Shown piece after piece: positions 11,584 to 42,471 of a stretch of 64,000 bases of DNA. The number at the start of each line of letters is the position of its first letter. The first letter of the stretch is position 1. This DNA comes from Planctomycetia bacterium (GTDB lineage Bacteria > Planctomycetota > Planctomycetia > Gemmatales > Gemmataceae): NCBI GenBank assembly GCA_005772955.1, contig SXID01000244.1, positions 1 through 64,000 on the forward strand, read 5' to 3'. Both the position numbers and the translations under genes were made by a program. The notes beneath the pieces were generated by a model, which saw nothing but the letters and a program-made list of their open reading frames with translations, searched no databases and was not told the DNA's origin.

Positions 11584-13626
11584 ATGTCACCAGTACTTTC
11601 TCAGTCCAAGGATTGGCCGCAAGGCGAGATGGGCGAGATGGGAAATCTCATCCGCACCATGGATTGGTCGAAGACGCCGCTTGGTCCCATCGAGGACTGG
11701 CCTTCCAGCCTGCGTACCACGGTCAACCTGTGTCTGGCCTGCAACTTTCCGATCTCGCTTGCTTGGGGACCACAACGCACTCAAATCTACAACGATGGCT
11801 ACTGGCCGATCTGCGGTGCCAAACACCCGCATTCGATGGGCCAGGATTTTCGTGAATGCTGGTTCACCGCCTGGCCCGTGATCCGCGAGGCGTTCAACCA
11901 GGCCAGCAACGGCCAGCCCGCAGTTCTCTTCAACCAACCGATGACCCTCGATCGCCTCGGCTACCTGGAGGAAACTTTTTTCACGGCCTCTTTTAGCCCG
12001 ATACGGGACGAAACCGGTACCGTCGTTGGAGTGTTCCATCCGGTCCTCGAGTTGACCCAGCAAATCCTGGCCGAGCGGCGAATGCAGATCCTCCGCGTTC
12101 TGGCCGAGTCCACCGGTCCGGCGACCTCGGTCGAGCAGGCCGTGTCCCTCTGCGCCCGCGTTCTGGCGACCAACCCTCTCGACATCCCTTTCGCCCTGTT
12201 CTACCGCAAGTTCGCCGAGAACACCGACGTGCGGCTCGTCGAGTGTGTCGGGTTCCAACCCGGCGAGGCCGCCAGCCCGGAGCGAGTCACCAGTCATCCC
12301 TCGTCCGTTTGGCCCCTTGCGGAAGTAGAGAGGACCGGCAAGGCCGTAGTCGTGTACGACCTCCCGAGCCGGTTCGGGCGGTTCTCCCGCGGGCCGTATC
12401 CCGAGCCACCGCGAACCGCGTTGCTCTTGCCAATGCGCCTGCCGGGTCAGGCGCAGTTGTTGGGAATGCTTGTGGTGGGGGTGAGCGCACGCCGCCCGTT
12501 GGATGATCCCTACCGGACCTTTTACGCCCTGTTGGAGGACGCGGTCTGTAGTGCCCTGGCGAAAGCCCACGCCTACGCGGAGGAACGGTCGCGTGCCGAG
12601 CGAGCTGCCGAGTTGGATCGGGCGAAGACCGCATTCGTCAGCAACGTCAGCCACGAGTTCCGGACGCCGCTGACGTTGATGGTCGGACTGCTCGAGGAAG
12701 AACTGGCTTCGCCCCACCCTCCCGAAAGTGGCCATCGACTCGCGACGATCCATCGCAACGGTTTGCGGCTGCTCAAACTCGCCGATTCGCTGCTCGACTT
12801 TTCGCGGATCGAGGCCGGCCGGATGCAGGCCTCATTTGAGCCGACCGATCTGGCAGGACTCACGCGGCAGGGGTTTGCCAGGGTCCTGCGTCTCGCCAAC
12901 GTGGAGATCCAGGCGGCGAATCGGCACAAGAGCGAGTTCGTCGCCAACATGTCGCATGAACTGCGGACGCCGCTGAACAGCATCATGGGATTTGCCGAAT
13001 TGATGCACGACGGCCGGCTTGGCCCCGTGTCCGCCGACCACAAGGAGTATCTCGGCGACATCCTGACCAGCGCTCGACATCTGCTCGCTCTGATCAACGA
13101 CGTGCTCGACCTGTCCAAGGTCGAGGCCGGCAAGATGGAGTTCCGCCCCAAGCCAGTGGACCTGGCGGCGCTGACGGCCGAGACTACGGCCTGCCTACGG
13201 TCCCAGGCGGCACACAAGCAGATCACCCTCACGACGCACGTCGATCCCACCCTGTGCGACGTGGTCCTCGACGCTTCCAAGTTCAAACAGGTGATATACA
13301 ATTACCTTTCCAACGCTCTGAAATTCACACCTGAGCGCGGGCGGGTAACCATCCGGCTGGAGGCTGTCGAAAACGACCAGTTCCGGCTCGACGTGGAGGA
13401 CACCGGTTGTGGCATCGCCGCGGCCGACCTACCGAAGTTGTTCAGGGAGTTCCAGCAACTAAACCTGGGGTTGTCCAAACAGAATCAGGGAACGGGCCTG
13501 GGGCTGGCGTTGACGAAGCGGATCGTGGAGGCACAGGGTGGACGCGTTGAGGTTCGCAGCGCCCCCGGTCAGGGAAGTACATTCAGCGTCATCTTACCCC
13601 GACACCAGGCGAGCACTGAAGGATAA
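11584..13626 (+). CDS. Sensor histidine kinase: PAS-like, GAF-like, two HisKA segments, one HATPase
   Basis: FVSNVSHEFRTPLTLMVG and FVANMSHELRTPLNSIMG, then a single N/G1/G2 set (NYLSNALKFTPERG, VEDTGCGI, GTGLGLALTKRIV). Confidence 0.9.
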   Translation: MSPVLSQSKDWPQGEMGEMGNLIRTMDWSKTPLGPIEDWPSSLRTTVNLCLACNFPISLAWGPQRTQIYNDGYWPICGAKHPHSMGQDFRECWFTAWPVIREAFNQASNGQPAVLFNQPMTLDRLGYLEETFFTASFSPIRDETGTVVGVFHPVLELTQQILAERRMQILRVLAESTGPATSVEQAVSLCARVLATNPLDIPFALFYRKFAENTDVRLVECVGFQPGEAASPERVTSHPSSVWPLAEVERTGKAVVVYDLPSRFGRFSRGPYPEPPRTALLLPMRLPGQAQLLGMLVVGVSARRPLDDPYRTFYALLEDAVCSALAKAHAYAEERSRAERAAELDRAKTAFVSNVSHEFRTPLTLMVGLLEEELASPHPPESGHRLATIHRNGLRLLKLADSLLDFSRIEAGRMQASFEPTDLAGLTRQGFARVLRLANVEIQAANRHKSEFVANMSHELRTPLNSIMGFAELMHDGRLGPVSADHKEYLGDILTSARHLLALINDVLDLSKVEAGKMEFRPKPVDLAALTAETTACLRSQAAHKQITLTTHVDPTLCDVVLDASKFKQVIYNYLSNALKFTPERGRVTIRLEAVENDQFRLDVEDTGCGIAAADLPKLFREFQQLNLGLSKQNQGTGLGLALTKRIVEAQGGRVEVRSAPGQGSTFSVILPRHQASTEG

Positions 13627-17665: not shown

Positions 17666-19846
17666 TCAGATCCGATCGAGCGAATCCGCCCAGTTCAGGA
17701 AGTCGGTGAAGGTCTTCTGGTCGAAGTACTCCTTGCCCGATTCCTTCATCTCGCGGAAGATCACCGGGAACCGCTTCTCGATGAGCAGGTTCTTGCTCTC
17801 CACGATGTCCTTGATGAGCGGATCTTTGTCGCCGCCGCTAATGAAGAACGCCAGCGGCTGGTTCGCGATGTTCTCCTTCGGCGGGTTGCCGAGCGTAGCG
17901 CCAGTGGTGCAAACGCCGCGGAATACGTCGCGGGCGTTGAACCCGACGTAGAACGCCATCTCGCCGCCGTTGGCCTGACCGTGCGCTACGACCCGCGTCC
18001 GGTCGATCGTGTACTGCGCGATCACCGCTTTCACGTCCTGAACAACCACCTCCGTCTCGGTGGGCCGCCAGCCGGCTTCGGCGCCCGCCTTCGGCCCCAT
18101 GATGATGAAGTGGTTGTCCGCGGCGAAGTCCTCGAAGGTCTTCGACATCTTCTCGCTATCCTTGCCGCCCTGTCCGGCCTGGTGGAACCAGACGATCAAG
18201 CCATGCGACACGTTTGGGTCGTAGTTGTCCGGCACGTACACCCAGTACTCGCGCCCGAGCGCCTCGTTGGCCCGCGTCATCAGCCCGGTTTCGATCTTCG
18301 GCTTGTCCTTCTTCGGCTCTTCCTTCTTGTCGTCCTTCTTCTCGTCTTGCGCGTCGCAGTCGTTGAGCGGTCCTTTCGGCGGGAACGGATCCTTGGGGAA
18401 CGGATCCTTCTTGGGCGGGTCTTTCGGCTTGACGCCCTCAAGTGCTTTGCCCGCGCTCGACGGCAGCGGCAACTTCTCGGCCACGTCATCGGGCGCCGGA
18501 ACGAGCTTCGCCTGCACCGTTTCGACCTTGCCGCCGTCCTTGCGTTTGACCTCCACTTTCACCTCCGTGCCCGGTGCAAGACGCTGAATCGCGGCGATGA
18601 GTGCGGCGCGGTTCTGAATCGCGGGCGGCGTGGGCAGTGTCGCCGCGCCAAACTTCATGATGCGGTCGCCGACCTTGATCCCGGCGGCCTCGGCCGGGCT
18701 TTTCGGGTACACGAAGCGGACCTCGACGCCCGGTCCCGGATCGTCGCGCATCGGCAGAACGCCGAAGTACGCGGCGACGTAGGCAGTCGTCGTCCCAAGC
18801 AACTTCACGCCCTTGAACGCCATCTCCTTGTCGCCGCGCATCACCTTAATTGCGAGTTCGTCCGACTCATACAGCGGGCCCATGATGTGCTGGAGCGTCG
18901 AGTAGTTCGACACCGGCTTGCCGTTGATTTCGATGATCTTGTCACCGACCTGCAACCCGGCCCGCGCGGCGGCGGAGTCCGGCTGAATCGCGCCGATGAC
19001 TGGCGGAGCGTTGTACACGTCGGTTCCCTGCGGCGACACGCCGAGTAACCCGCGACGCAAGTCTTTGCCTTCCTTCAGCCGCGGCAACGACGCAAGGATG
19101 TCCTCGAGCGGGACGGCGAACCCGATCCCGCCGTCGTACACGTCCACGCCCGCAGTTTCGCCCTCGGCGCGGGTGCTGGCCGGCACAACGACGCCGTACA
19201 CCCGGCCATCAATGCTGACCAGCGATCCGCCGTAGTTCACGGGCGAGGTCTTCGCGTCAGTCTGGATCGCTTTGCCCCAGATGCGGTTGGTCGCACTCAC
19301 GATGCCCACGCTCATCGACGGCGGGTGATCCACGTTGTTGTCGAGCGTGCGCCCAAGCGTCAACCCCCACTGGCCGACCTCAACGTCCTTCTTGGGAAAC
19401 GTCTCGGGCACGGGCAGGTCTTTCGCGTCGATCTTCAAGAGTGTCAGCATGCGAGTCTGGTCGTTCGCGACGATCTTCGCGACGAGCCGCTGCGGGCGCC
19501 CCGGCACCGTGACGAAGATGTCCGTGGGCTTGTTCGCGAAGTTGAACGCGCTCGAAATGATGTAACCGTCGGCGGAGACGACGAGTCCCGTCGTGGGGCC
19601 GACGCCTTTGCGGATACCCGCGCCGGGCGGACCCTTGCCCTTCGGCGCACCGGTGATCGTTTCCGTTCCGCCTGCCGTTTCGATCTTCACGATCGCCGGC
19701 GCGACCTTGGCGGAAGCCGCCTTCATCGCCTTCTCGGTCGCGTCGTTGATGTCCGATTTCGGCTGTGCGGAGACCGGCGCGGCGAGCAAGGCCACGGCAA
19801 CGACCGCGACCCACGGCCTTGCGGTTTTCGGAACGGTAAACTTCAT
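17666..19846 (-). CDS. Exported HtrA-like pseudoprotease + PDZ domains + inactive alpha/beta-hydrolase domain
   Basis: Signal peptide; trypsin-fold pattern with SSAFNFAN, QTRMLTLL and SPVNYGGSL in place of the triad motifs; PDZ segments (AGLQVGDKIIEINGKPV; AGIKVGDRIMKFG); C-terminal LIVWFHQAGQGG..VVAHGQANGGEMA. Confidence 0.75.
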   Translation of the reverse strand: MKFTVPKTARPWVAVVAVALLAAPVSAQPKSDINDATEKAMKAASAKVAPAIVKIETAGGTETITGAPKGKGPPGAGIRKGVGPTTGLVVSADGYIISSAFNFANKPTDIFVTVPGRPQRLVAKIVANDQTRMLTLLKIDAKDLPVPETFPKKDVEVGQWGLTLGRTLDNNVDHPPSMSVGIVSATNRIWGKAIQTDAKTSPVNYGGSLVSIDGRVYGVVVPASTRAEGETAGVDVYDGGIGFAVPLEDILASLPRLKEGKDLRRGLLGVSPQGTDVYNAPPVIGAIQPDSAAARAGLQVGDKIIEINGKPVSNYSTLQHIMGPLYESDELAIKVMRGDKEMAFKGVKLLGTTTAYVAAYFGVLPMRDDPGPGVEVRFVYPKSPAEAAGIKVGDRIMKFGAATLPTPPAIQNRAALIAAIQRLAPGTEVKVEVKRKDGGKVETVQAKLVPAPDDVAEKLPLPSSAGKALEGVKPKDPPKKDPFPKDPFPPKGPLNDCDAQDEKKDDKKEEPKKDKPKIETGLMTRANEALGREYWVYVPDNYDPNVSHGLIVWFHQAGQGGKDSEKMSKTFEDFAADNHFIIMGPKAGAEAGWRPTETEVVVQDVKAVIAQYTIDRTRVVAHGQANGGEMAFYVGFNARDVFRGVCTTGATLGNPPKENIANQPLAFFISGGDKDPLIKDIVESKNLLIEKRFPVIFREMKESGKEYFDQKTFTDFLNWADSLDRI

Positions 19847-19909
19847 CGGAGGAGTCTCGTGGCTGTCGGTGTATTGGTTCAGCGTCGGCCCCGGCGGGGC
19901 CACAATGCG

Positions 19910-21085
19910 TCACGGTTTCGGCGGCGGTGGCAGCGGCAGTTTTGGCTTCGGCGGGTGCTGCCCGAGTTCCACCTCAACGGTCTGAAGCGCCTCGCCGCGG
20001 CGCACCTCGAACCGGACTTTCATGCCCGGCCGCGTGTGCTTCTTCATGTACTCGTCAAGCGCCTTGATGCTGATGATCGGCTCGCCGTCGATGAAGCTCA
20101 CGAGGTCGTCGGGCCGCAACCCGGCCTTGTCCGCGGGCGAACCAGGAGCCACGTCCTCGACGTACGCGGGCGTGCGTTCCAGGATGTTCGGCACGAAGAT
20201 GATGCCGTGGTAGCCGCCCTGCCCAATGAACTCTTCCCGTTTCTTCTGTTTGTACTTCCCCTGCAAGGCGAGAGTGACGAACTCCGGCACCGACACCGTC
20301 GATGTCTTCTCCTCTTCAACGTCCTTGCCGTCCTTGTCCTTGACAGTCACCTTCTCCTTGAATTCCGTCTTCCCAACGATCGGGATCGCGTAGTTCATCC
20401 AGGTCTCGGTGAGGCTGTTCTTGAGTTCACGACCGATGATGCCGAGGAGTTCGCCCTTCTTGTCGAGCAGCGCGCCGCCGGCGGCACCGGGGTTGTTGGT
20501 GATCGCGTCCACGACGTACACGTCGCCTGAGTACGGGAACTCGAAGATGCCGCGACGCCCGGCCATCTTCGTGTATGCAGAGACGACCCCGCGCTGCACA
20601 CTCAGCGGTTCGTCACGCAGCGCGATCTCGAACGTATTGGTCATCGCAAGAACCCAGTCGCCCGGCGCCGCGGGGCCGCGTTTCACGGCCGCGTCGAAGT
20701 CGAAGTAGCCCTTGCCCTTTTCCAGGTTCAACCCGTTGTCCTCGTCGATCTTCTTGCCGTCCAGCCGAATCTTGATGAGCGCAACGTCGAGCAACGGTTC
20801 GGTCACAATCACCTGCGCTTTGAGGCGTTGCCCGTCGTACATGTGGACGACGAGTTCGGACGTGTCGAGCAGTTGGCTCGCGACGGTCAGGATGTGACCA
20901 TCGGAGCTGATAAGTATCCCCGTGCCGTAGTTGTTCAGGCGGGAGAACCCACCGGCACCGAAGACTTTCACGAGTTTCTTGTTCGCGTTCTCGACCGTGT
21001 CCGCGAATGGGTCGGCCGCGGGCGCGAGCGCCGGCGTGGCGACAGCCGCGACAACGGCGAGCAAGGCAGAGTATCGCGTAAACAT
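19910..21085 (-). CDS. Exported HtrA-like pseudoprotease with PDZ domain
   Basis: GTGILISSDGHILTVASQLLD, LLDVALIKI, NNPGAAGGALLD, PDZ AGLRPDDLVSFIDGEPI. Confidence 0.75.
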   Translation of the reverse strand: MFTRYSALLAVVAAVATPALAPAADPFADTVENANKKLVKVFGAGGFSRLNNYGTGILISSDGHILTVASQLLDTSELVVHMYDGQRLKAQVIVTEPLLDVALIKIRLDGKKIDEDNGLNLEKGKGYFDFDAAVKRGPAAPGDWVLAMTNTFEIALRDEPLSVQRGVVSAYTKMAGRRGIFEFPYSGDVYVVDAITNNPGAAGGALLDKKGELLGIIGRELKNSLTETWMNYAIPIVGKTEFKEKVTVKDKDGKDVEEEKTSTVSVPEFVTLALQGKYKQKKREEFIGQGGYHGIIFVPNILERTPAYVEDVAPGSPADKAGLRPDDLVSFIDGEPIISIKALDEYMKKHTRPGMKVRFEVRRGEALQTVEVELGQHPPKPKLPLPPPPKP

Positions 21086-21136
21086 GGTGGGGGTGTCGTG
21101 ATGTTGCTTGGTTGGAATCTTGGCGAGCGATCTTTT

Positions 21137-21208
21137 TAGGGTGGGCATTGCCCAGCATCGCCGCCAGTCGCCTTGCGCGGCGCGAAGAGGTGGGCAGTGC
21201 CCACCCTA
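21137..21208. repeat. REP-like element with inverted ends TAGGGTGGGCA...TGCCCACCCTA
   Basis: 11-bp perfect terminal inverted repeat; internal palindromes GGGCATTGCCC and GGTGGGCAGTGCCCACC. Confidence 0.75.
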
Positions 21209-21216: not shown

Positions 21217-23025
21217 CTACTTGTTGAGCGTCCACTTCGTCGGGGTGAGCACCGCGTACCGCTTGTCGCTGTGGCGCACTTCAATGCGGCCCGGCACCTT
21301 CCGCCCGTCCACGTCCTTGTAATCGTAGAAGGACACCTCGCACGGGTCCGCTTCGTCGGCGTCCTTCGAGTCCTTCGCAACGTATGTCTCAAAACCGAGC
21401 AGTGTGCTGTCCTTCAGCGAGAAGTACCACCTGCAGTTCACCGAACCGTGTTTGGTCAGGATCACGGCGCAATCCACGCGAAGTGATGCGAGCGACTTCG
21501 GCACCGACCCGTCGGCCGGGTACGGGTAGAACGGCTCGTTGCCGCCATGTGCGAACCCGCCCTCGAAGCCCTTCTCGCCGAGCGTTAAGAAGCGGTGGTA
21601 GTGGTACATCGCCATCATCAACCCACCGCTGCCCAGCGGCATCTTCTGCAGCGCGCGGTCGTTCTGCGTGAGTGGCTCGAGCGTCGTTTCGATGTTCATC
21701 TTCAGCGTGACCTTCGCGGTGTCCTTGGCTTCCACCACGTCAATCTTCAGCGCGCCCTCGCGGTCGGGCATCTTGTAGGCACCCTCGATGACCCACACGC
21801 CCGGCACGGTCGAGAAGTCGCCGTGCTTCTTGAACGCGGTCAGGAGCTTGTCGCGTTCAAGCACGTTGAAGTACCAGTTGGAGTAGCCCGGCTTCGCCTG
21901 GTACATCTTCGCGTTCTCGCCGCCGCCGCCCTTGGGCACCGGGACCGGAACCGGCGCCGGCCCCTTCGGGGGCGGCCCGCCCGGCACCGGCGGCTTCTCC
22001 TTGTCCATGTTCCCCATCAGCCGCACCAGAAACTCCTTCCGCTCGTTCTTCCGGCGGACGGTCAGCGGAACCCGCCACTCCCTCGGGTAGATCCCCAGCG
22101 CGTTCTTGTAGTTGTTCGTGCTGCCCACATCGCGGCCAGCGAACACCAGCAGTTGGTCGCCGTCCGCGATGCCCCGGCGGAACGCGTCGCTTTCGTCGAG
22201 TATCTGTTTGACGACCACCGGCGGGAGTTGCGAGTCCTCGTTCGCGGAGCCGACCGCGGCGCCGAGCGTGGCGTGGTCGGAGTCGATCCCCGCCCGCAGG
22301 TGCCCCATGAAGTTCTTGATCTGGTTGATCGAGATTGCGTAGCCGACGCCGGAGTTCACGCGACCGCGCTTCTCGAACGACCCGCGACCGTTGATGCCGA
22401 TCAACTCGCCCTGCATGTTGAACAGCGGCCCGCCCGAGTTGCCGGGGTTGATCGAAGTCTCGATCTGGATGCAGTCGGTGTATTCCAGAAGTCCCTTGCC
22501 TTCCGGGGGCTGGTAGCGGTTCACGCCACTCACCAGGCCGTACGTGACGGTGGGCGTGAAGTCCATCGCCAGCGAGAACGGGTTGCCCATCGCGAGCGAC
22601 CAGTCACCGGCGCGAACCTTGTCGCTGTCGCCGAGCGCCACGAACGGGAACGGTTTGCCCTTCTCCTTCGGCAGCAACCGGATGAGCGCCACGTCACCGA
22701 CCTTGTCGATGCCGCACACAACCGCGTCGTAGAGTTTGCCGTCGGCAAGCCCGGCCTGCATCAGCGGGCCGGTCGGTTGCACGACGTGGAAGTTGGTAAG
22801 CGCGTAGCCTTCCGGGTCGATGATGACGCCGGAGCCGACGCCCTGCCCGCCCTGCATACACACCGCGACAATCGCCGGGTGAACCTTCTTGATCGTGGCG
22901 ATGCGTTGCGATTGCGCGTCGAGAACCGCCTTGTCCACTTCGATTGGCGCGGCCGGCGCCGCGGGCACAACGAGAGCGGCGACCAGAACGGCCGAGGCGA
23001 GTGTGGGAGCGAGAAGACGAGTCAT
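21217..23025 (-). CDS. Exported HtrA/S1C-like serine protease with intact triad and C-terminal extension
   Basis: GSGVIIDPEGYALTNFHVV, VGDVALIRL, NPGNSGGPLFN. Confidence 0.85.
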   Translation of the reverse strand: MTRLLAPTLASAVLVAALVVPAAPAAPIEVDKAVLDAQSQRIATIKKVHPAIVAVCMQGGQGVGSGVIIDPEGYALTNFHVVQPTGPLMQAGLADGKLYDAVVCGIDKVGDVALIRLLPKEKGKPFPFVALGDSDKVRAGDWSLAMGNPFSLAMDFTPTVTYGLVSGVNRYQPPEGKGLLEYTDCIQIETSINPGNSGGPLFNMQGELIGINGRGSFEKRGRVNSGVGYAISINQIKNFMGHLRAGIDSDHATLGAAVGSANEDSQLPPVVVKQILDESDAFRRGIADGDQLLVFAGRDVGSTNNYKNALGIYPREWRVPLTVRRKNERKEFLVRLMGNMDKEKPPVPGGPPPKGPAPVPVPVPKGGGGENAKMYQAKPGYSNWYFNVLERDKLLTAFKKHGDFSTVPGVWVIEGAYKMPDREGALKIDVVEAKDTAKVTLKMNIETTLEPLTQNDRALQKMPLGSGGLMMAMYHYHRFLTLGEKGFEGGFAHGGNEPFYPYPADGSVPKSLASLRVDCAVILTKHGSVNCRWYFSLKDSTLLGFETYVAKDSKDADEADPCEVSFYDYKDVDGRKVPGRIEVRHSDKRYAVLTPTKWTLNK

Positions 23026-23130
23026 GGTGAAGTCCCAGTTAAGCAAGCAATTATAGCACCTGCGCGCGGCACTCAGATCCATCTGCACCACGGTTTGGCG
23101 TCGGACCCGGAGGGGCCGCGCCCTTCGCGA

Positions 23131-24384
23131 TCACTTCTGCACGCGGGCCTCGGCCAGAGTCACGTAGTTACCATTCAGCGGCGTGTCCGCTTCGACAACG
23201 ATGCGCAGTTGTTTGACGCCCTTCACGGCGAGAACCAACCCCTTCGCCTTGTCTTTTCGCTTGAGCGTGTCGGTGAACAGCACCTGCCCGTCGGCCTCGA
23301 TCGTCACGCGGGCGGCGCTGGTCGCGTTCGTGCCGTTCTCGTCGATGCCGATCGTCGCCTTGAACTGCGTGTAATCGCCGCCAAGGTTGAACGTCGCGAC
23401 CGTGTCGGGTGCGAGGCAGATACCCTTAGGGAAGATCGTGTTATCCAGTTTGATCGACTCGTTCGAGAGCGAACGGTCCTTCAGGTATGGCGCGGTCGGG
23501 TTCAACCGCTTCTCATCGGCCGGAATTTCGGGTACTTCCAACTGCGGGTCGAGGTCCGATAGGTACGCCACGTTCCCGAGCGCGTAGTCGAGTTTCACAA
23601 GCGACGCGGTCGAAGCGTACTTGACCGTCGCGCCCGCAACTGTCGTCACCGTGATGCCCGCAGGGGTAATCGAGATAGCAGACGCCGTGAGTGAGTTCCC
23701 GAACACGTCGGTCACCTTGCACAGCGTCGGCGTGATAACCGGCGGTTGCGGTTGGTAGAACACAAGCCCCGCGGCGCGCGACAACTGGAGTTCGTCCTTG
23801 CCGCCGGCTTCCTTCTCGAAGTTCACGATCGGGCGTCCCTTCTCGTCGGACCCGCCGCCAAGAACGGTGCCCTGAATGAACGTGAACCCCGTTTCCTGCG
23901 CGATCACATAGAGGTCTCGCTTGCCGCGAGTGCCGAGCATCTTCTTCCAGGCTTCGCGGCCCTTCGCATCCTCGGCCTTCTTCATCGCGGAGAACACCGA
24001 ACCCATCGGCACGTCGAGTTTCGGCTGCGCAACCCCCTCCGGGCCAGCAATCGGGTCCGCTTCAAACTGCTTGCCCTTGAGCGCGAACTTCGTGACGCGG
24101 AACGTGGAACCGTCGGTCAGTTCGATCTCGGAGTAGGTCGTCACGTCCTTCGGAATCGGTGCGACCCGGTTCCCGAGGTCCACAACCACGATATCGCGGG
24201 CCGAGATCTGAACGTTGCCGCCGCCAGTCGAGAACGAAACACCTTGCCCATCCACCGAGACGAGTTTGCCGTTGAGTTTCTTCCCGGCGCTTGTGGTCAC
24301 GTCGTCGGCGTTCACCTGGGTGACGACGATCGCGAGTGTCAGCAACGCGGTGGCGAGTACAGCGGCGCGGCGACAGAGTCGCAT
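23131..24384 (-). CDS. Exported protein with C-terminal NPCBM-like domain
   Basis: Signal peptide; FPKGICLAPDTVATFNLGGDYTQFKATIGIDENG..VLFTDTLKRKDKAKGLVLAVKGVKQLRIVVEA. Confidence 0.75.
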   Translation of the reverse strand: MRLCRRAAVLATALLTLAIVVTQVNADDVTTSAGKKLNGKLVSVDGQGVSFSTGGGNVQISARDIVVVDLGNRVAPIPKDVTTYSEIELTDGSTFRVTKFALKGKQFEADPIAGPEGVAQPKLDVPMGSVFSAMKKAEDAKGREAWKKMLGTRGKRDLYVIAQETGFTFIQGTVLGGGSDEKGRPIVNFEKEAGGKDELQLSRAAGLVFYQPQPPVITPTLCKVTDVFGNSLTASAISITPAGITVTTVAGATVKYASTASLVKLDYALGNVAYLSDLDPQLEVPEIPADEKRLNPTAPYLKDRSLSNESIKLDNTIFPKGICLAPDTVATFNLGGDYTQFKATIGIDENGTNATSAARVTIEADGQVLFTDTLKRKDKAKGLVLAVKGVKQLRIVVEADTPLNGNYVTLAEARVQK

Positions 24385-24653: not shown

Positions 24654-25772
24654 TCACTTCTTGTAACCGTGGATCTTGTCCAGGGCCTCGAAGTAGTTCT
24701 TGATCATCGGCTCGAACTTCGGCGGCAGGTCGCGGGTGATGTCCGTGATGACCTTGGCGCGCTTCTCCGGCGGCAGGGTGCCCCACTGCTCGGCGATCTT
24801 GCGGAGGTCCTGTTCAGTCGTCTTGCCCGGACCGCTGCCGCCCATGATCGTACTGTCCGGGGCGTTCTGCATCGGTTGCAGGTTGTTCCCGCTGCCCGGC
24901 TTCTGTCCCTGGCCCGGCTTGTCGCCGCCGCTGGGGCAACTGCCGCCGTTGGCCTGACCATCGCCGGGCTTGCTCTTGGCTTCGAGTTCCTTGATCAACT
25001 CGTCGAGCCGGAACACGATCTTTTTCTGGATGTCCTGGGTCTTCTCGCCACCGCGGGCAAGGTCGAGCCGGCGACCGCTGTTGTCCATCAGACGGCCGAT
25101 GTTCGACAGGTCTTTGGGATCGGTCGCCCAGCCCTGCATCTCGAAGAACATCAGGGTCGCAACCATCTTGTAGCGGTCCGGCGCGTCGGCCACGTCGTCG
25201 AGGAGCTTGACAATCGAGAGGATCGCGGCTTCCTTGTCGCCGGTCTTCATCGCGGTCGCATGGTGCGAAACCGCCTTGAAGAAGTAGAAGCTGGCCGGGT
25301 CGACGGCGAACTCCGGGTTCACGCTCTTTAGCGCTTCCAGAGCCTCTTCGTAGACCTTCTTGCTAGCGGCGGCCTTCGCGAACGCGAGGGTCACGTTGGT
25401 GCGGAAGAAGGCGTCTTGCTTCTCATCCTTCAGGATAGCGGGCACCGCGTCCGGGGCCATCGCTTCTTGCTTGCGGACGTTGGCCAGCATCGCGGCGACT
25501 TCGGTGTTACCCAGCGCGAGCGAGTCGGCGGTACGGTCGAGGACTGTCCGCTTCTCGTCGGACCAGATCTTGTCGAAGGCGGCCTGGTCGAACTTGCCGA
25601 CCGACTTCAGCCACGTCGCGGAGTTGGCCTTGGCGGATTCTGGGGTGGCGGCCTTCAATGTGCTGAATCCGAACGTCGGCTTCTTGGCCGGTTCGGCGGC
25701 AAGTGCAGGGGTCGCGGTGACGGCCAGTCCCGTCGCAATGGTGGCAGCCGCGAACAGCTTTCGGATCTTCAC
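24654..25772 (-). CDS. Exported hypothetical protein, helical with Gly/Pro-rich linker
   Basis: Long ORF with signal peptide MKIRKLFAAATIATGLAVTATPALA. Confidence 0.75.
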   Translation of the reverse strand: MKIRKLFAAATIATGLAVTATPALAAEPAKKPTFGFSTLKAATPESAKANSATWLKSVGKFDQAAFDKIWSDEKRTVLDRTADSLALGNTEVAAMLANVRKQEAMAPDAVPAILKDEKQDAFFRTNVTLAFAKAAASKKVYEEALEALKSVNPEFAVDPASFYFFKAVSHHATAMKTGDKEAAILSIVKLLDDVADAPDRYKMVATLMFFEMQGWATDPKDLSNIGRLMDNSGRRLDLARGGEKTQDIQKKIVFRLDELIKELEAKSKPGDGQANGGSCPSGGDKPGQGQKPGSGNNLQPMQNAPDSTIMGGSGPGKTTEQDLRKIAEQWGTLPPEKRAKVITDITRDLPPKFEPMIKNYFEALDKIHGYKK

Positions 25773-25946: not shown

Positions 25947-27965
25947 TCACTGATTGGCCTTCGTCGCGATGTCGTGGATCATCTTCTTGAGGACTTCCTG
26001 CCGGGCCGCGAGTTGGGCCAGTTCCGCCTGAATCAGCGGGTCTTTCGCCTGCTCGCCCGGATCCTGCTTATTGTACATGATCGTCCGCTTGTTCACCTGC
26101 TCCTGGAGCGACTTCACCAGCTTGAGTTCCGCGAGCAGTTCCAACAGCTTGTTGTCCTGCTTCTTCGCGTTCGGGTCAGACGGCTTCGGATCGCTCGGCT
26201 TGCTCTCCATGTCCTGCTTGGCCTTCTTGAGCGCGTCCTTCATCATCGTGAGTTGGTCGATGATGTCTTGCTCAATCTGCTGGGTGTCCGCGCCAACGCG
26301 GGCCTCGTTGAGCCGCTTCTGAACGGCCGTCATGTCACCCATGACTTCCTTCAGCACGCCCGCGAACACAACTGCGCTGCCTTCACCCTCCATCAACTTG
26401 AGCGTGGCTTCGGCAAGCGCGACGATCTGGCTTTCCTTGTCCGCTTCGGTCTGGCTCTTTTGGATCTCCGCGACCGCTGGCTTGTTGCCGCCGAGCGCCT
26501 TCACGGTCTTGTCGATGTTCTCGGTCGCCGCCTTCACTTCGATCTGCATCTTGAGCATCATCGCGACCCGCTTCTCGAGGTTTTCGAGGAGCTTGGCCAG
26601 TTCCTTCTCGCGAAGTTGCTTCAGGCGGGCTTCCAGTTCCTTGAGCGCCTCTTCCAGTTTCTTGATCGCCTCGTCTTGCTTCTTGGTGGCGGCGTCCTTG
26701 TCCTTCTTCTTGATGTTGTCTTCGGCGTCGTTCTGATCCGGGACTGCTTGCTGAACGTTGTCCGCGGCCGGGTCTTTCTTGGCTCCCGGAGGGGGCGGGC
26801 TGCCGCCCGGAGGGGGCGAGCCACCCGGCTTCGACGCGCCCGGAGGCGGGCCGCCGCCCGGCATCGGCATACCGCCCATGCCTTCGCCGCTCATCGGCTT
26901 GCCTTCGCCCCCCGGCATCCCGGCTGACGGCTTCGGCTCGCCCTTGCCATCGCCCTGCGCCTTGCTGTCCCCTGGTTTCGGATCGCCCGGCTTCGGATCG
27001 CCGCCCATCGGCGGCATCTTCGGATCGGTACCCATCGGCTTCGGCTCGCCGCCGGCCTTCGGGTCGCCCGGCTTCGGATCGCCGCCCATCGGATCCTTCG
27101 GGGACGGCTTGTCGCCGCCCGGCATCCCGCCCATCGGCATGCCGCCCATTGGCTTGCCGTCGCCGCCCTTCGGGTCGCCGGCCATCGGCATCCCCGGCAT
27201 CGGCATCCCTTCGCCCGGCTTGCCGTCGGCCTTGTTCTCCTTCGTGTCGGGCTTGGCTTCGGCGTTGTTTTCGCCCGGCTTCGATTCCGGCTTGTTCTCG
27301 GACTTCGGGTCTTGCTTGTCACCAGCGTTTGGCTGGCCCGGCTTGTCGTTCGGGTTCGCGGCCTTCGCAAGCGCGTTCGCAAGGTCTTGCGTCGCTTTCG
27401 AGAGCAGGTTCTGATCCTTCGCGAGTTTGTCGGTATCGCTCTTTGGGTTGAAGGTCCGCGCCAGCAGGTTTTCCTGCTTGGTCTTGATGTCGCGGATCGC
27501 CCGGATCGCGTCTTCCAACTTCTTGATGTCGTTCTTGATGCGCTGCGCATCGTCCTCGGTTTCGAGGAGGTTCAAGATCTCGCTGAGGATGGCAATGAGC
27601 TTCTTGTCCTTGCCGAGCAAGGTCTCGAAGTCGCTACCACCGAGGTTCTTGCCGTTCAAGCCTTCGATGAGTTCCTTGAACAGTTTCTCGGCACCCTTCT
27701 CTTCAGCCAGTTTCAGCACCGCGCGGAGGGACTGGGCGCGGTCCTTTTCTTCCTGGCTGTCGCTCTTCTCCCACTTTTGGGCGAGCCGCAACACCCGGTC
27801 CATGAAGTCCTTGTAGAGCTTCAGGTTGGCTTCCTGGCCACGCTTGGCACCGGGATCGGTGGCGGGAACTGGTGTCGGCTGGGCGGTCAGCACCGAAGTG
27901 AGTGTGAACAAGCCAAGTGTCGCGGCAAAAGTCAGCGACATCAACGTCGGCAACCGGCGGAACAT
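25947..27965 (-). CDS. Exported coiled-coil protein with long Gly/Pro/Met/Lys/Asp low-complexity region
   Basis: Signal peptide; GMPMPGMPMAGDPKGGDGKPMGG..GGDPKPGDPK repeats; Glu/Lys/Leu coiled coil. Confidence 0.75.
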   Translation of the reverse strand: MFRRLPTLMSLTFAATLGLFTLTSVLTAQPTPVPATDPGAKRGQEANLKLYKDFMDRVLRLAQKWEKSDSQEEKDRAQSLRAVLKLAEEKGAEKLFKELIEGLNGKNLGGSDFETLLGKDKKLIAILSEILNLLETEDDAQRIKNDIKKLEDAIRAIRDIKTKQENLLARTFNPKSDTDKLAKDQNLLSKATQDLANALAKAANPNDKPGQPNAGDKQDPKSENKPESKPGENNAEAKPDTKENKADGKPGEGMPMPGMPMAGDPKGGDGKPMGGMPMGGMPGGDKPSPKDPMGGDPKPGDPKAGGEPKPMGTDPKMPPMGGDPKPGDPKPGDSKAQGDGKGEPKPSAGMPGGEGKPMSGEGMGGMPMPGGGPPPGASKPGGSPPPGGSPPPPGAKKDPAADNVQQAVPDQNDAEDNIKKKDKDAATKKQDEAIKKLEEALKELEARLKQLREKELAKLLENLEKRVAMMLKMQIEVKAATENIDKTVKALGGNKPAVAEIQKSQTEADKESQIVALAEATLKLMEGEGSAVVFAGVLKEVMGDMTAVQKRLNEARVGADTQQIEQDIIDQLTMMKDALKKAKQDMESKPSDPKPSDPNAKKQDNKLLELLAELKLVKSLQEQVNKRTIMYNKQDPGEQAKDPLIQAELAQLAARQEVLKKMIHDIATKANQ

Positions 27966-28216
27966 GAGTAGCCTCCCTCCTAAGGGTGCGACGCGGATAA
28001 CCCACGTCACGGAGTGGTCATTCGTCTGCCATTGTGACGACCCGTCGTAGAGCCGCCAACAGTCAACAGGGGAAAAACGGTAAGTGTTCGGGCAAATGTT
28101 ACAGTCTGTTACGAACTCAGCCCACTCTTGCCCGTGATTTCACCAGAGGGCGACTTCTTCTGAGCTTTTCTCGCCTGCTCTTGTGCAACTCCGACGTCAA
28201 GTGGTCAGAGATGGTC

Positions 28217-28311: not shown

Positions 28312-31300
28312 TCACTTCACGATCACGGTCACCTCAACCGGATTGCCGACCGCGGGCGTGAGCGTGATCTTGTAGTTCCCTTCTTTCGCCCCGGCTTTCA
28401 CCTGATAGTCGAAACGGAACTGGTGGGTCTCGAAGTTAAGTTTCAGTTCCGCTGGAACGACCAGCGACGGATCGGACGCTGTCACCTTCACGGTCAGGTC
28501 GTCTTCCTTGTACTTCGCCCAGATGATTGTGTGGCTCAGTTTCTTGGCCTCGTTCTTGTTCAGCGCGACCGCGCCGATCTCGCCGATAGTCGGCTTCTCG
28601 CTGGTATATTTGATGCGGAAGTCTTCTTCCATCTTCTTGATCTGCGCCTCGACACGGCGTTGGTCATCCAGGATCTTTCGGAGGCTCTTGATCAGGAATT
28701 CCCTCTTCTCCGACTCGCCGATTTCCCTGCGGATCTCCATGAGCAGGCGTTCAAGCGCGTAGAGCGATTGTTCGGCGTCGGTGACGCTGCCGAGTGGCGC
28801 CCAGCGGCCCGTGTTCAGCGTGTTCTGCACTCCGTTCATCAGACCCTGTGTCTTCGGGAACGCGACCGAGGCGTTCGGGTCTTCGCTCAAGATGGCTTCC
28901 AGCTTTCCACAGTAGTTCAGGTAGTTCTTGGTGGTGATCTCAACAACGCGGTTCACCTGACACTCGCGAGCGATGCGGCGAAACTCGCGGAGCACCGTTT
29001 GCACGATGTCGCGTGACTTGTCCACGTCCTGCAGCGCGTCCTGGTGACGCACCTTCACCGCGTCCACTTGCTCCGGCGTCTCTTCCTTGAAGCCGTTGGC
29101 GCTACGAACGAAGTCGTACTTGCGCTTCGCAGCCGCGAGCTTCACGAGAGCCTCGTCCAGACGTTCGCCGAGTAACAACTCCTCCTTGCTGATTTCGAGC
29201 AAGAGGTCGCCTTCGGAAACGATACGGAGGCGAATCGGTTCGCTGCTGCGCGTGATGCGCGGGCCTCCGTCCGCGTCCGCGTTGTTGTCCGTCGCCTGTA
29301 CGTACAGATCCATGCGATACGTGGCCTGCACGTCATCACCCGACGGCAGAAGTTTGATGATCTTCTGGTCGTTCAGTTCCTTCAGGTCGAAGTAGTCGCG
29401 GTCTGAGTTCTTCAGTTCGATCTTCCGCACCGCTTCGGGGTTCGTCTCGTCGCCACTTGCGGATCGCAGGCGGTTCTCAAGAGCCTCCTTCGTGTCGCGG
29501 CGGAGCCGGCTGTTCTGGTTCACGAACTCGCTCACGAACACCGACGCGCTGAGCCGGTCGTCGCTCTTGTCGAGTTGCCGGAAGTTCTCCATGTGCAACC
29601 GCGGCAGCAGCAGCGACGTGAGGTACTGCGGTCCGGTCGCGGGTGCGTCGAGCAACGACCGCAGCGCGTACTTGGTGCGCAGTCCGCGGACCACGTCGGA
29701 GTCTTCCGCGTAGTAGTTGAACAGGTACTCGACCTTGCTCAACCCGTGGTCGTCCTTGACGAAACTATCCGGGTTGAACGGGATGCGGGCGAGCGGCGTG
29801 ACGAGGTACACGTTGCCCGACTTGCGAATCACGTCTACTCCGACTTCCACCACCGGCGGCTGATCCTGCGCGACTTGAATGAGAATCGCCCGCGTGGTGC
29901 TCACGTTGTACTTGTTCGTCCAGGTCACCTTGAACTCGACCGGCTCTTTCAACCGGTAGTCGAGGTTCACGGCTTTACCAACCGGCGCAGTGCTGGCCGT
30001 GCCTTCAGCCTGGTTCTTGAAGACAATGGTAAACCCCTTGCCGCCGCCGCTGAGTTGCACGGGCACGGGTGCCTGGGTCGGTTTACCATCCGCGTCCATC
30101 ACCGTGCCGGGGAACCGTCCGGTTACCGGCGTTGCGAACGCGGACACGATCGCGTCGTTGTCCGACAGCACGCCCGCGTCGTCGGTGTAGGCGTCCGCAA
30201 AGATCGTAAGGTGCGTGCCCGCGGGCACGACGAACACGGACCTTTCGCCCGTGAGCGAGAGGTTCCGCTCGCTCATCAACTGCCGCTTGCCCTTCAGGTC
30301 GTCGAAGCTCGCTCCCTGGGGCGGTGCGTGGTGCAGGTACGACGGTTCTTCCTGGATGCGGTACAACCGCTTGAGTGTCGGCGGCGGGATCAGCCGAATC
30401 CGGTGCGGTCGCGTGGCGAAGTCGTCGGCCTTCACGACAAACGCGACGTCTTCCTTTAGACCACTGATGTCGCCATCGAACTCGTTGTTCTGCTTCGCCT
30501 TGAGCGTGCCGTTGCCGCGGTACTTTGCGCCGTAGTACTTGAAGGACACCTCGATCGGTTCATCGACCTTGACCAGGTTGCCTTCCTCATCGATCTTGAT
30601 CACCTGACGCGATAGTTCGAGTTTGCGAAGCGTGCGCCCCATGCTCGGCTGATCTGCTTTCGCGTTAAGCGCCTTCATCACTTCTTGAAGCTCGACAAAC
30701 TTATCATCGCCCAGCGCCGCCGACGGGTGGGACGTCCCCGCGCCCTCGGCCGCAGTGAGCCGGCGTTCGACCGCGTCCACGCTCCACCCGAACGCGGTAT
30801 TCGGTACACTGCCGTGCAGTTCGTCAGGGGATCGCAGCGCCTGGAAGTCGAACTCCGGCACCTTGCCGTCGATGAGGTTCTCGTTCACGTCCGACCACAT
30901 CATCGGGCGCCAGCCCTCCGACACCTTGCGGTCAGCGATGACCCACTTGTACGTGCGGGCGGTAACGGGCACGGAGGCGATGTCGCGGCTGACGGTCGCC
31001 TCGGTTTCTGGGAAGCCAACGAGTTCGACGTGCGCCCGGCGCGGCCACGGTGTGTTCATCAGCGCGACGTTCCGCTCGACGAAGATGCCAGAGACGTGCG
31101 CGAACTTCCACGCGAACCGGTATGGGCTGACGGACTTCGTCGCGATCACGTGACTCGCGAACGACACGGCCACCGTCGAGAACAGCATTGCGAAAGCGAG
31201 GAAGCCCATCACCCACAGTCGCTTCCAGTTGAACACCTTGCTCACGGGCACCTTGGCAACCCGCTCGCGGGCCTCGGCGATGGTCGCCCGGATCATGTCC

Positions 31301-31737
31301 TTCGAGTACCCGAACTTGCCCATCGCTTCCACGTCGGCCATCTCGACCGCGGTGATGAGTCGGTCGCCAAGCAACTTCGGGAACTTGCGTTCCAGGACGA
31401 GCGCGAGCGCGGCGTACGAGAACTCCTTCGTGACGCGCGTCACGATGCGGAACACCAGGATGGCCGCGAACAGACCCAGCGCCGTGATGAGTGCGATGGC
31501 CCGGATTGCACGCGCCCCGTCCAGCGCCCAGTCCCACCCGGTCACTTTGAACAGCCCAAAGTCGAAGATCAGCCCGAGCGTGAACCAGAGGGCCACGAAC
31601 AGGAACGCGGAGATTGCGCCTTCGATGATGACGTAGCGCCTGATGATGCCGCGAAGCTGGTCGAGCGGGTGGTACACCTGCGGATCGCGCGCGAGTTCGG
31701 GGTTCGCGGGCCGGCGGGTTCGTTCCACGGTGGACAT
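28312..31737 (-). CDS. Large membrane-anchored protein, DUF4175-like architecture
   Basis: N-terminal TM segments, extended extracytoplasmic and coiled regions; adjacent to MoxR/VWA genes. Confidence 0.6.
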   Translation of the reverse strand: MSTVERTRRPANPELARDPQVYHPLDQLRGIIRRYVIIEGAISAFLFVALWFTLGLIFDFGLFKVTGWDWALDGARAIRAIALITALGLFAAILVFRIVTRVTKEFSYAALALVLERKFPKLLGDRLITAVEMADVEAMGKFGYSKDMIRATIAEARERVAKVPVSKVFNWKRLWVMGFLAFAMLFSTVAVSFASHVIATKSVSPYRFAWKFAHVSGIFVERNVALMNTPWPRRAHVELVGFPETEATVSRDIASVPVTARTYKWVIADRKVSEGWRPMMWSDVNENLIDGKVPEFDFQALRSPDELHGSVPNTAFGWSVDAVERRLTAAEGAGTSHPSAALGDDKFVELQEVMKALNAKADQPSMGRTLRKLELSRQVIKIDEEGNLVKVDEPIEVSFKYYGAKYRGNGTLKAKQNNEFDGDISGLKEDVAFVVKADDFATRPHRIRLIPPPTLKRLYRIQEEPSYLHHAPPQGASFDDLKGKRQLMSERNLSLTGERSVFVVPAGTHLTIFADAYTDDAGVLSDNDAIVSAFATPVTGRFPGTVMDADGKPTQAPVPVQLSGGGKGFTIVFKNQAEGTASTAPVGKAVNLDYRLKEPVEFKVTWTNKYNVSTTRAILIQVAQDQPPVVEVGVDVIRKSGNVYLVTPLARIPFNPDSFVKDDHGLSKVEYLFNYYAEDSDVVRGLRTKYALRSLLDAPATGPQYLTSLLLPRLHMENFRQLDKSDDRLSASVFVSEFVNQNSRLRRDTKEALENRLRSASGDETNPEAVRKIELKNSDRDYFDLKELNDQKIIKLLPSGDDVQATYRMDLYVQATDNNADADGGPRITRSSEPIRLRIVSEGDLLLEISKEELLLGERLDEALVKLAAAKRKYDFVRSANGFKEETPEQVDAVKVRHQDALQDVDKSRDIVQTVLREFRRIARECQVNRVVEITTKNYLNYCGKLEAILSEDPNASVAFPKTQGLMNGVQNTLNTGRWAPLGSVTDAEQSLYALERLLMEIRREIGESEKREFLIKSLRKILDDQRRVEAQIKKMEEDFRIKYTSEKPTIGEIGAVALNKNEAKKLSHTIIWAKYKEDDLTVKVTASDPSLVVPAELKLNFETHQFRFDYQVKAGAKEGNYKITLTPAVGNPVEVTVIVK

Positions 31738-31818
31738 ATCGTTACCCAGTGTTCGGTGTTCTGATCTTGGCAATCACAGGGCGTAAGCCCTGTTAAACCT
31801 GGACGCTGCGAGTATCGA

Positions 31819-34800
31819 TCACGCGAGCCGCAAGAGCTTCCGCGCGAGCCACTCCGCTGAGAGGAGCGAGACAACCGACAGTAGCGCGAAACTCGTCTGC
31901 ACGCTCGCTCCACTGAAGCCCCAGACGGACGTAGCGAGGAGCGTAACCGCGCTCCCGACGGCGAGTACGCCGAGCATCACCAACCCGCCCACCCACTCGC
32001 TTCGGAAGGCGATCACCTGGGTGACGAATAGGCCGACGCCGATTGCCCAGAACCACCAGTCGAACATGCCCACCAACATCAGCACGCCCAGCGATGCCAG
32101 GGCAAGCAGTTGCAGCGCCAGGATCGGCAGGTTGATCGCGAGCCGCGTGCCAGAACCGAGCTGCTCGATCGCCACCGCCCAGAGCACGCGAGTGAGCAGG
32201 AAACCGATCGCCGCCGCGAGCAGGATGATCAAGCCGACGTTCGTCCGCAGTTGAGTCAACTCGAAGTCCATGAGGCGGACCTCGGTACCCAGAACCGTGA
32301 ACTTGAGCGGCTTGTCCCACAGGTCGTGAACCGGACCGCGATTCTCCATGCTCCGTTTCTCGGTCTTCATGCACTCCGGGATCAGTTTGAGCATCTCGGT
32401 GTCGCTCACCTTGAACGCGAGCCGGTGGACGCCGGCCTCCTTTGGCAGTTTGGTTCCCAGATCGACCCTCAGCTTGTCTGGGAGTCGCGCCTGGAAATCC
32501 TTGTCGAACTCGCTCGCCATGCGGAGCATCGCGGGGAAGTCCGGCTTCTTGTTGTCCATCTCCGGGTCGGCAGCACGAATCTTGAATTCGCCCGTGAGTT
32601 TCTCGCTGGCCGCGTCGGGCACCTCAATCTCAACGCGGTAGAGCGACTCGCCGGGAGTGAAGATCTTCGGATCGAGCAGTACCTGACCGGCGTAGTAGCC
32701 GTCGAATGGGGCGCCGGTGTTGCTGATCTTGGGCGCGAGGTCGTACGGCCCGAACGACCGCTTGTCGCCGCCGCCAATCGGTTCCTGAATAATCGTGAAC
32801 TTCGGCGCGGGCACGGAGATCGCGTAAGGCTTCGCGCTCTCATCGAGGACGCGGGCCTGCACGCGAAGAGGCGCCCCGGCGACCGCTTCCTTACCAACCA
32901 GGATGCGGCCACGCGGCGCCTTGATGTTCCGCTTGCCCGCCATGTATTTGATCATCTTGATCCAGATGCGCTCGAAGTACTCACGCCCGGTCCCCTCGCT
33001 CGGTTCGTAAACGCGCATCTTGTAGAACTCGCCCGATGCCAGGAAACACGTGCGCCACGCGGCCGACGGGTTGTTGGTCACGAGGTACGGGAGTTTAACC
33101 ACCTCGCCCGTATCGCCCACGTCGGCAAACTCCGCGAGCACGGCGCTACCCGCCTTCACCCCGCCGATACCCACGTCCTGCTTCAGTGGGTAACAGGAGA
33201 AGAACCCGCGTTTGGGGAACAGTTCGTTCTTCAGGTCCACGTCCGCGACGTACTTGTCGCGGTCGGTGAAGAACAGTTCCCAGCCCGCAATGGGATCGTC
33301 CTTCACCTTGTCGTCGAGCTTGAGCAGGTCCGAGCCGATGATCGCCTTCGAGTTCAGGTAGAGCCGGCGCGGCGTCTTCGGGATCGGCTTGATCCGCTGC
33401 GCGATGATGTCGGCTGGCTGGACCGGGAGGATCTTGAGCAGCGGGTCGAGCCGGCTGTTCTCTTCAACGCGAGCAAGCTGGAACGTGTTGATCGGGCCGG
33501 CGACGTAGATGAGACCACCACCGCCTTCCTTGACCCAGCGTGCAAGGTCTTCGGCCTGCTGTAGCGAAAGCTCGCTCCAGTCCGGGTCGAACGCGATCAG
33601 CACGTCGTACTCGTTCAGGTTGTACGGCCGGTCTTCGGGAGTGATCTTCCCGGTGGTCTTCAGGTCGAACTTGGTGGGGAACCGCGGGATGACGGTTTCG
33701 TCCTGTTCCGCGGTGAGTTTGCCGCTGGTGCCGGCGTCGTTCTGAACGAACGTGGTGAGCGACGCACGCTTGTCCTGAACTTCACGCACGAGCAGCGTGC
33801 GGAGGAACGTGAACTCACGCGACGGTGCGCCCGCCATCAGCAGGATGCGGAGCTTCTGTTGCACGAAGTTGATCTCGCGCACGGTGCTGATGTGCTCGGG
33901 GTCCGGGAACGCTTCTTGCGGGTCTCGCGCGATCCGGGCGCGGGCGGACCACTTCCCTTCCGGCATTACGCGCTTCTTGATGGCCGCATCCTTCGACTCG
34001 ATCGTGAGCTTCTCCGGCAACTTCGCCGGGTCGATGACGAACTCTGACTGACCGTGCGGCGGGTCGCCCGGTGCGAACATGAGTTTCTGAGTAATCTGAT
34101 GGTCCGCAGCGTCTTTCTTCACGTCCTTCCCTGGCATCCACAGGTCGAGTATCACATCGATTTCCTTGTTCGCGAGGTTGTAGCCGTCGGCCTCGACAAT
34201 GACCTTCGACGCCTCGTCAATGGGCGCGCTATCGGGTGCCTGCACATCGCTGATCGTGATCGCGACTCGCTCGCGGTCCTCGCCGACCGTGATGGTGAAC
34301 ACCGGGATCTTCTCGCGGCTCGCTCGTTCACGCAGTTCCGCGTAGCTCGAATCGGAGCCGAGGTTGCTGCGCCCGTCCGACAACACGATGATGCCCTGCA
34401 CCATGTTGGACGACTCGCGGTTGATCGCGGCCGTGATCGAATCGGGCACGTTGGTGCCAAGCGTGATCGTGCGGGCCACGTCGATGCGCTTGTCGAGCTT
34501 CTCCAGGTTCCTCTTGAGAATCTCAACGTCCGCGTCCGATTCGAGGTTCGCGAGCGTCTTCAGGTCGTCGGTGCCCTTCCGCGCGAACCACGACTGCGCC
34601 CAGTCCGCGGTGCCGGGGCCGTCGCCCCATTCGCGTGACGCGCGGATCTGTTCCTTGCCCGCGTCCGACAGCCCGCGGAGCACAAACGGCTTGAAGTCGT
34701 ACCGGCGGAACGAGTCCCATTCCGCCTTCGCCCACGCCGGCTCTTTGTGGCCGATCATGGTCGGCGTCTCGTCGAGGCGCGTGCCGAAGGCGTACACCGC

Positions 34801-38832: not shown

Positions 38833-39780
38833 TTAGCGGCGGGCGGGGTTGGCCCGCGTCGCCATACGCTGGAAGAGGAACTTCGAGAGAACCGCGTCCA
38901 TGTAGTCGCTTGTGCGGAGCAGCGTGTAATCCACGCCGATTCGCGTGCAACCGCGGCGCACTTCCGTCAGGTACAGTTCCAGTTCTTCCAGATACCCTTC
39001 GCGGAGCGAGCGTGGGTCGCACAGCAGATCCGGTTGCTGCTCCAGTCCTTCAAACTTGGTCATCCCGGAGAACGGGAACTGCAGTTCGTCGTCGTCGAGG
39101 ATGTGGAACACCATCACGTCATGCCGCCGGTGGCGGAGCATCTCCAGACCCTTGAACAGCGGTTCGCGGTCGCAGAGCAGGTCCGAGAAGATGAGCACCA
39201 GCCCGCGATTGGGCATGGCCTCCGCGACCTGCCGCAAGATCTTGAGAATGTCGGTCTTCTCACGCGGGTTCGACACGTGGAGCGCCTTGGTCACGGCATC
39301 CATATGCCGGATCGAACTCCGCGGCGGGATCGCCTCGCGCACGTCCGAGTCGAACGTGATGAGACCGCACGAGTCCTGCTGCTTGACCGTGAGGTACGCC
39401 AAACACGCCGCGGCGGTGGCGACGTAGTCGTACTTGTAGAGGCCACCGTTCTTACGGTACTTGTCCGCGCCGTAGAGCATGGATTCGCTGGCGTCCACGA
39501 CGACGTATGAGCGGAGGTTGGTTTCCGCTTCGTACTGCTTGATGACGAATTTGTCGGACCGCTGCCACACCTTCCAGTCGATGCGGCGAAGGTCGTCGCC
39601 GGGCATGTACTCGCGGTGCTGGACGAACTCGACGCTCTGCCCGTAGACGGGGCTTTTGTGCATCCCCGAGATGTAGCCCTCGACCACCTGGCGTGCCCGC
39701 AGATCTAACTGCGAGATGCGCGCGATGACTTTGGGGTCAAGGAACCGGCGTGGGTTATCGAGGTCGGATTTCTTGGCCAT
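38833..39780 (-). CDS. DUF58 protein (VWA-like)
   Basis: [45 protein letters not shown]. Confidence 0.92.
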
Positions 39781-39902: not shown

Positions 39903-40961
<1,059 letters not shown>

Positions 40962-42291: not shown

Positions 42292-42471
42292 GAGAACTCT
42301 CCACTGGTGTGCCGCAGCTCAGACGGTCCGTGCACGACCGACCGAGAAGCGGGGTGTAGGTAAAAGACGACTGACGAGCAAAACATTAACACTGGTGGTC
42401 GGCAACTGCCCACCGGCGCGAAGCGGGTCTGCAACGCTGGAGAGGAGAAACCGGGGGAGGCTGCGAATTTT

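Follow-up and report, generated by a model that had tools for sequence, protein, structure and literature searches.

Background

HtrA proteases are trimers in which neighbouring protomers influence one another's active sites, and they are known mainly as trimers and cages of identical subunits. Other proteolytic rings combine live and dead chains: in ClpP/ClpR and in the eukaryotic 20S proteasome, catalytic and non-catalytic paralogues have been kept together for a very long time. The nearest precedent among HtrA proteases is the MamE/MamO pair of magnetotactic bacteria, a live HtrA and a pseudoprotease encoded close by; MamO is inactive yet needed for MamE-dependent proteolysis, i.e. proteolysis by the live partner depends on the presence of the pseudoprotease and not on its triad (PMC4794232). 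Active/inactive pairs evolved repeatedly in magnetotactic bacteria and the authors infer selection for such a pairing (PMC4794232). The documented HtrA pseudoprotease partners that we found in the literature are those of magnetosome islands.

The window analysed here, a stretch of 64,000 nucleotides, encodes three tandem HtrA paralogues: HtrA1 with a live-type triad, followed by the dead HtrA2 and, as last gene, the dead HtrA3. As in MamE/MamO, a degenerate triad is paired with a live HtrA, but the planctomycete set has two dead partners and is kept as a trio across the phylum. Furthermore, HtrA3 has a fixed Tyr at the nucleophile position and carries PDZ and hydrolase-like domains where MamO has TauE; neither a TauE domain nor a match to the MamO family was found in HtrA3 with Pfam and NCBIfam. 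The trio lies in a MoxR/VWA operon, whereas MamE and MamO are encoded among magnetosome genes. With the HtrA/Deg proteases (DegP, DegQ, DegS) HtrA3 shares the trypsin fold followed by PDZ, the apparent secretion and the best structural matches, but it has F-M-Y in place of the catalytic triad and an additional hydrolase-like tail. This tail matches short-chain PHB depolymerases and LpqC-like esterases weakly (residues 549-666) and differs from them in lacking the GxSxG nucleophile and the His and in scoring below the family cut-offs. From ClpP/ClpR and the 20S proteasome the trio, a putative complex, differs in fold and oligomer. Live/dead pairing as such is already known; the phylum-wide set of one live and two dead HtrAs is new, and no description of it was found in the literature searched, the coverage of which was incomplete.

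One live and two dead HtrA paralogues close a MoxR/VWA operon

The operon comprises the following genes, all on the minus strand:

39903-40961, minus: MoxR AAA+ ATPase (PF07726, 1e-60)
38833-39780, minus: DUF58 protein (PF01882, 4e-45)
35823-38723, minus: BatA-type membrane-anchored protein (PF07584, 2e-13; TIGR02226)
31819-35742, minus: orf8, conserved operon member with a weak VWA match (profile search, synteny)
28312-31773, minus: orf7, conserved operon member without Pfam match (Pfam search, synteny)
25947-28010, minus: orf6, conserved operon member without significant Pfam match (Pfam search, synteny)
24654-25772, minus: orf5, conserved operon member without Pfam match (Pfam search, synteny)
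23131-24384, minus: NPCBM-domain protein, operon member (Pfam, 6e-20; synteny)
21217-23091, minus: HtrA1, intact triad H102/D133/S219 in the motifs FHV, GDVAL and GNSGG (Pfam, alignment)
19910-21148, minus: HtrA2, second pseudo-HtrA, Trypsin_2 and PDZ (Pfam, alignment, AlphaFold)
17666-19846, minus: HtrA3, pseudo-HtrA, predicted secreted, two PDZ domains, pseudo-alpha/beta-hydrolase tail (ORF, Pfam, AlphaFold)

The trio thus closes an operon of the order MoxR-DUF58-BatA, orf8 to orf5, NPCBM, HtrA1, HtrA2, HtrA3. Adjacent MoxR, DUF58, BatA and VWA genes upstream of the trio resemble the Bat aerotolerance operon of Leptospira (PMC3557215). The trio also occurs without these genes. To our knowledge, no HtrA trio is part of the described Bat operons. 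From orf8 to HtrA3 the gene order is identical across several families of the class and largely kept in other classes. On one contig (L178, 5279-12385) MoxR and DUF58 genes are located between the NPCBM gene and HtrA1, which ties the Bat genes closer to the trio. Directly upstream of MoxR, window positions 41125-47566 (minus) encode a SQHop_cyclase_C-like protein and a protein of 1676 residues with BamB/PQQ and weak TPR matches.

HtrA1 probably starts at the ATG at 23025, and all 92 readable orthologues keep H, D and S. HtrA2, with the ATG at 21085 as likely start, has lost the His and has the nucleophile motif NPGAAGG; its AlphaFold model (pLDDT 87.9) has a DegP-like fold. The Ser is present in one of 115 HtrA2 orthologues (L056), which has no His, and none has a complete triad. 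An active HtrA2 in those orthologues in which an NNH motif occurs is ruled out as well, none of them having the Ser.

HtrA3 is an intact HtrA chain without catalytic triad

The first-pass annotation had described HtrA3 as an HtrA-like protease fused to an alpha/beta-hydrolase-like half in an unbroken frame of ~2.2 kb, and this description holds. The frame is intact from 17666 to 19903 if an upstream GTG is the start, and the product has 726-745 residues depending on the start chosen; the ATG at 19846 corresponds to residue 20 of the GTG-started protein and is near-invariant among orthologues. The following features, all on the minus strand, are numbered from the GTG:

19766-19846, minus: predicted Sec signal peptide, MKFTVPKTARPWVAVVAVALLAAPVSA/Q (read by eye from the sequence)
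19076-19600, minus: trypsin-like domain, residues 102-276 (Pfam Trypsin_2; profile match to solved HtrA chains)
19544-19546, minus: F120 at the catalytic His position (profile alignment; 126 orthologues)
19448-19450, minus: M152 at the catalytic Asp position (profile alignment; 126 orthologues)
19232-19234, minus: Y224 at the nucleophile Ser position (codon reading; 127 orthologues)
18806-19051, minus: PDZ 1, residues 285-366 (Pfam)
18503-18766, minus: PDZ 2, residues 380-467 (Pfam)
17669-18292, minus: pseudo-alpha/beta-hydrolase, PHB-depolymerase-like, residues 538-745 (sub-cut-off profiles, AlphaFold, orthologue alignment)
17972-17974, minus: A644 at the hydrolase nucleophile position (codon GCC, 17974-17972)

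Pfam matched Trypsin_2 (4e-14) and two PDZ stretches (3e-21), which together with the profile and fold matches gives the HtrA/Deg (S1C) architecture of a trypsin-like domain followed by PDZ domain(s); a proline/lysine-rich linker separates the PDZ domains from the tail. Against TIGR02037, HtrA3 scored 144.6 bits, below the curated cut-off of 416. An AlphaFold comparison had been proposed in the first-pass annotation, and the model (mean pLDDT 85.7, pTM 0.76) does resemble DegP/DegQ, the closest solved structures in a fold search against the PDB.

In a family-profile alignment with solved DegP, DegQ and HtrA chains, F120, M152 and Y224 take the places of His, Asp and Ser, so that the loss of all three triad residues read from the sequence at first is borne out, as are the codons TAC (19234-19232) for the Ser of the protease and GCC for that of the hydrolase. 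F120 was assigned from a sequence-profile alignment that has an insertion of one residue close by, and the adjoining N121, which is nearly invariant (Asn in 112, His in 2 of 126), could be the site instead; even then the alignment would give no triad, because the nucleophile is Tyr throughout. Orthologues were taken from genomes related at ranks from genus to phylum and from GTDB genomes (127 distinct proteins), the GTDB part being the best 80 of 559 relatives, nearly all planctomycete (Gemmata, Limnoglobus, Fimbriiglobus, Schlesneria). The nucleophile position was Tyr in 127/127 and Ser in none. At the His position an aromatic residue was found in all 126 readable rows (F 115, Y 6, W 5), and at the Asp position Asp was found in none of 126 and Met in 93. 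Of all windows of the trypsin domain, the nucleophile loop (214-227) and the strand 256-265 rank among those with the lowest entropy. Since the signature occurs phylum-wide, a recent or lineage-limited loss of catalysis is ruled out.

The hydrolase-like tail also lacks its catalytic residues, but its nucleophile position varies

Pfam Esterase_PHB and Peptidase_S9 match the tail below cut-off, as does the NCBIfam family of short-chain PHA depolymerases (1.9e-12). AlphaFold modelled residues 540-745 confidently as alternating helices and strands; the full-length fold search listed only HtrA chains. The nucleophile Ser is replaced by A644, and a catalytic His was neither seen near residues 721-726 nor conserved among orthologues, in agreement with the initial description of this half. 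Neither the GxSxG nucleophile nor the catalytic His of PHB depolymerases is thus present, and a live hydrolase making up for the dead protease is ruled out by these losses and by the variability of position 644. This position is not conserved by alignment entropy: of 106 orthologues, 70 have Gly here, 13 have Ala, 2 have Ser and the remainder have various other residues. Of the two substitutions whose conservation was to be surveyed, the Tyr of the protease is therefore fixed and the Ala of the hydrolase (13/106) is not.

Most orthologues examined outside the class Planctomycetia lack the tail and end after one PDZ domain; one full-length, tail-bearing case beyond the confirmed class members comes from a genome labelled to phylum only (G167). 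The second PDZ domain and the tail therefore look like later additions centred on Planctomycetia. The earlier notion of two independently dead domains is right in that both sites are lost, but they differ in kind. To judge from the alignments, it is the dead protease, phylum-wide and with its fixed Tyr, that carries the argument for selection, and the drifting tail adds little because its nucleophile position varies.

HtrA3 is under purifying selection

Among close relatives, dN/dS was 0.10-0.17 for the trypsin and PDZ part of HtrA3, 0.15-0.28 for its tail and 0.13-0.19 for the live HtrA1; in the closest pair the values were 0.009, 0.034 and 0.018, respectively. HtrA3 is under purifying selection as strong as that on HtrA1 and is not decaying, as the first-pass annotation had argued from the open frame.

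The trio is ancient and its members are retained together

A tree was built from the paralogues of 20 genomes and the remaining HtrAs of this genome. In it, each of HtrA1, HtrA2 and HtrA3 formed one clade with 100% bootstrap support, within which the groupings largely track taxonomic families. Since each paralogue is a single clade across the phylum, the trio predates the split of the sampled lineages. A survey of 199 genomes of the class found HtrA3 in 148, HtrA2 in 150 and HtrA1 in 148; all three genes were present in 147 and none in 49, and the three discordant genomes (G437, G431, G284) are drafts. Most of the genomes surveyed, all within Planctomycetota, are drafts and the co-occurrence is phylogenetically clustered: the genomes without the trio come mainly from one family (f3), which leaves few independent co-losses, in roughly four lineages. 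In four complete genomes (G143, G383, G323, G428) the trio is wholly or partly dispersed, all three genes are kept and their live/dead states are unchanged. These genomes set co-retention apart from mere operon linkage, which is weakened as its sole cause. In addition, a single reading frame of 979 residues in one genome (L185) joins HtrA1 to HtrA2; the HtrA1 part has kept its triad, and the HtrA2 part no longer has the Ser.

With a trypsin-only profile searched against 246 genomes of the phylum, strong matches (at least about 330 bits) were found in 41 genomes, and a few matches lay at 233-260 bits; ordinary HtrAs scored 226 bits or less. The matches at 233-260 bits and two lower-scoring cases belong to HtrA-like gene clusters in other families, without Bat genes. 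Each of the five fully recovered clusters of this second trio type contains one complete and two incomplete triads, and two partial clusters fit. In a tree, their live copies join HtrA1 (98/89), the dead copies of FN type join HtrA3 (97/95) and the third member is placed weakly near HtrA2. One HtrA3-like protein of FN type (L239, 6594-7664) keeps Ser and Asp and lacks only the His, which suggests that the His was lost first on the path to the dead HtrA3, with this protein as a possible intermediate. Three contigs with planctomycete-type genes (L088, L114, L124) carry the MAG titles Bacteroidales and Candidatus Kuenenia and are probably mislabelled or mis-binned.

A proposed non-catalytic partner of a live HtrA

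We propose, with a probability of roughly 0.6, that HtrA3 is a secreted non-catalytic HtrA subunit which, together with HtrA2, is an obligate partner of the live HtrA1 and tunes its activity. One live and two dead paralogues remain in the same genomes even after losing their linkage, and this is most simply explained by a mixed assembly or by an obligate partnership in regulation. The functional unit is then probably the trio: the binding or scaffolding role first suggested for HtrA3 stands in so far as a non-catalytic role fits the data far better than any other, but not as a role of HtrA3 on its own. Since HtrA proteases are built from trimers, we infer that the physical complex would most likely be a mixed trimer, in which one live chain is combined with two dead ones. 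In such a complex, the dead protomers would most likely recruit or position substrates via their PDZ domains and their conserved, blocked active-site grooves, and would set the activity of HtrA1 in the way MamO does for MamE. To judge from the neighbouring genes, the complex might be assembled or put to use together with an inner-membrane MoxR-VWA machine. In HtrA3, Leu stands where the GNPF motif of HtrA1 has its Phe; this residue is at the trimer interface in HtrA proteases, so the trimer contacts of HtrA3 may be altered. More tentatively, the trio may be an obligate mixed assembly with two permanently dead, distinct protomers, older than the split of the planctomycete classes, in which the plugged sites (Phe-Met-Tyr in HtrA3) serve as dock for a substrate or partner; such an assembly would be the equivalent, among HtrA proteases, of the proteolytic rings that combine live and dead chains. 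On the other side, co-retention would also be expected of three proteins that share a pathway without contact, HtrA1 may form a homotrimer to which HtrA2 and HtrA3 merely dock, and the HtrA1-HtrA2 fusion is a single case from a draft genome.

Other roles for the dead chains were weighed against this proposal. HtrA3, with or without HtrA2, could serve the MoxR/VWA machine by binding peptides or envelope ligands, without dealing directly with HtrA1; the operon with MoxR, DUF58, BatA, VWA and NPCBM genes, partly conserved across families and other classes, and the two PDZ domains and hydrolase-like tail of HtrA3 would fit such a scaffold, but the trio stays together without Bat genes in the second trio type and when scattered, and the fusion joins HtrA2 to HtrA1, so that we regard a stand-alone scaffold as unlikely. 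It is rather improbable that the dead trypsin fold now binds a metal, lipid or small ligand and has no role in proteolysis. MamO shows that such a change is possible (PMC4794232), and the pseudo-active-site loops of HtrA3 belong to the best-conserved stretches of its trypsin domain, but HtrA3 has neither the TauE domain nor the family match of MamO, the residues in its groove (F, M, Y) are hydrophobic, and a ligand-binding role would leave its constant pairing with a live HtrA unexplained.

That HtrA3 is inactive at all could also be questioned. Pseudoenzymes with migrated catalytic residues are known in general and Tyr224 is invariant; catalysis by other residues is nevertheless very improbable, given 126 orthologues without His at the site and without Asp at the Asp position, and a hydrolase-like half that also lacks nucleophile and His. 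A protease gene decaying towards a pseudogene after duplication would have lost its catalytic residues as HtrA3 has, but the frame is open in nearly all full-length orthologues listed, and the Tyr fixed across the phylum, the invariably aromatic His position, the missing Asp and the low dN/dS exclude chance decay; the chance that HtrA3 is a decaying gene is negligible.

If the partnership of HtrA1 with HtrA2 and HtrA3 is real, the trio would be one of the more broadly conserved bacterial pseudoprotease systems, kept phylum-wide despite the scattering of its genes, and the role of dead protomers for an HtrA would become directly testable by experiment. For the planctomycete MoxR/VWA operon, an operon of unknown function, the trio also supplies a partner and a hypothesis to start from.

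Other features of the window and the genome

Elsewhere in the window, an ORF at 11584-13626 (plus) encodes a histidine kinase with two H-box-like motifs (SHEFRTP and SHELRTP) and one ATPase tail and may be an internally shortened hybrid kinase. The product of 58244-58969 (plus), judged by eye, resembles a REP-associated (Y1-type) transposase. Another contig of this genome (G000:C130; L202, L203) contains an ORF of ~686 residues with two tandem Trypsin_2 domains and the motifs GDSGG and GSPGG.
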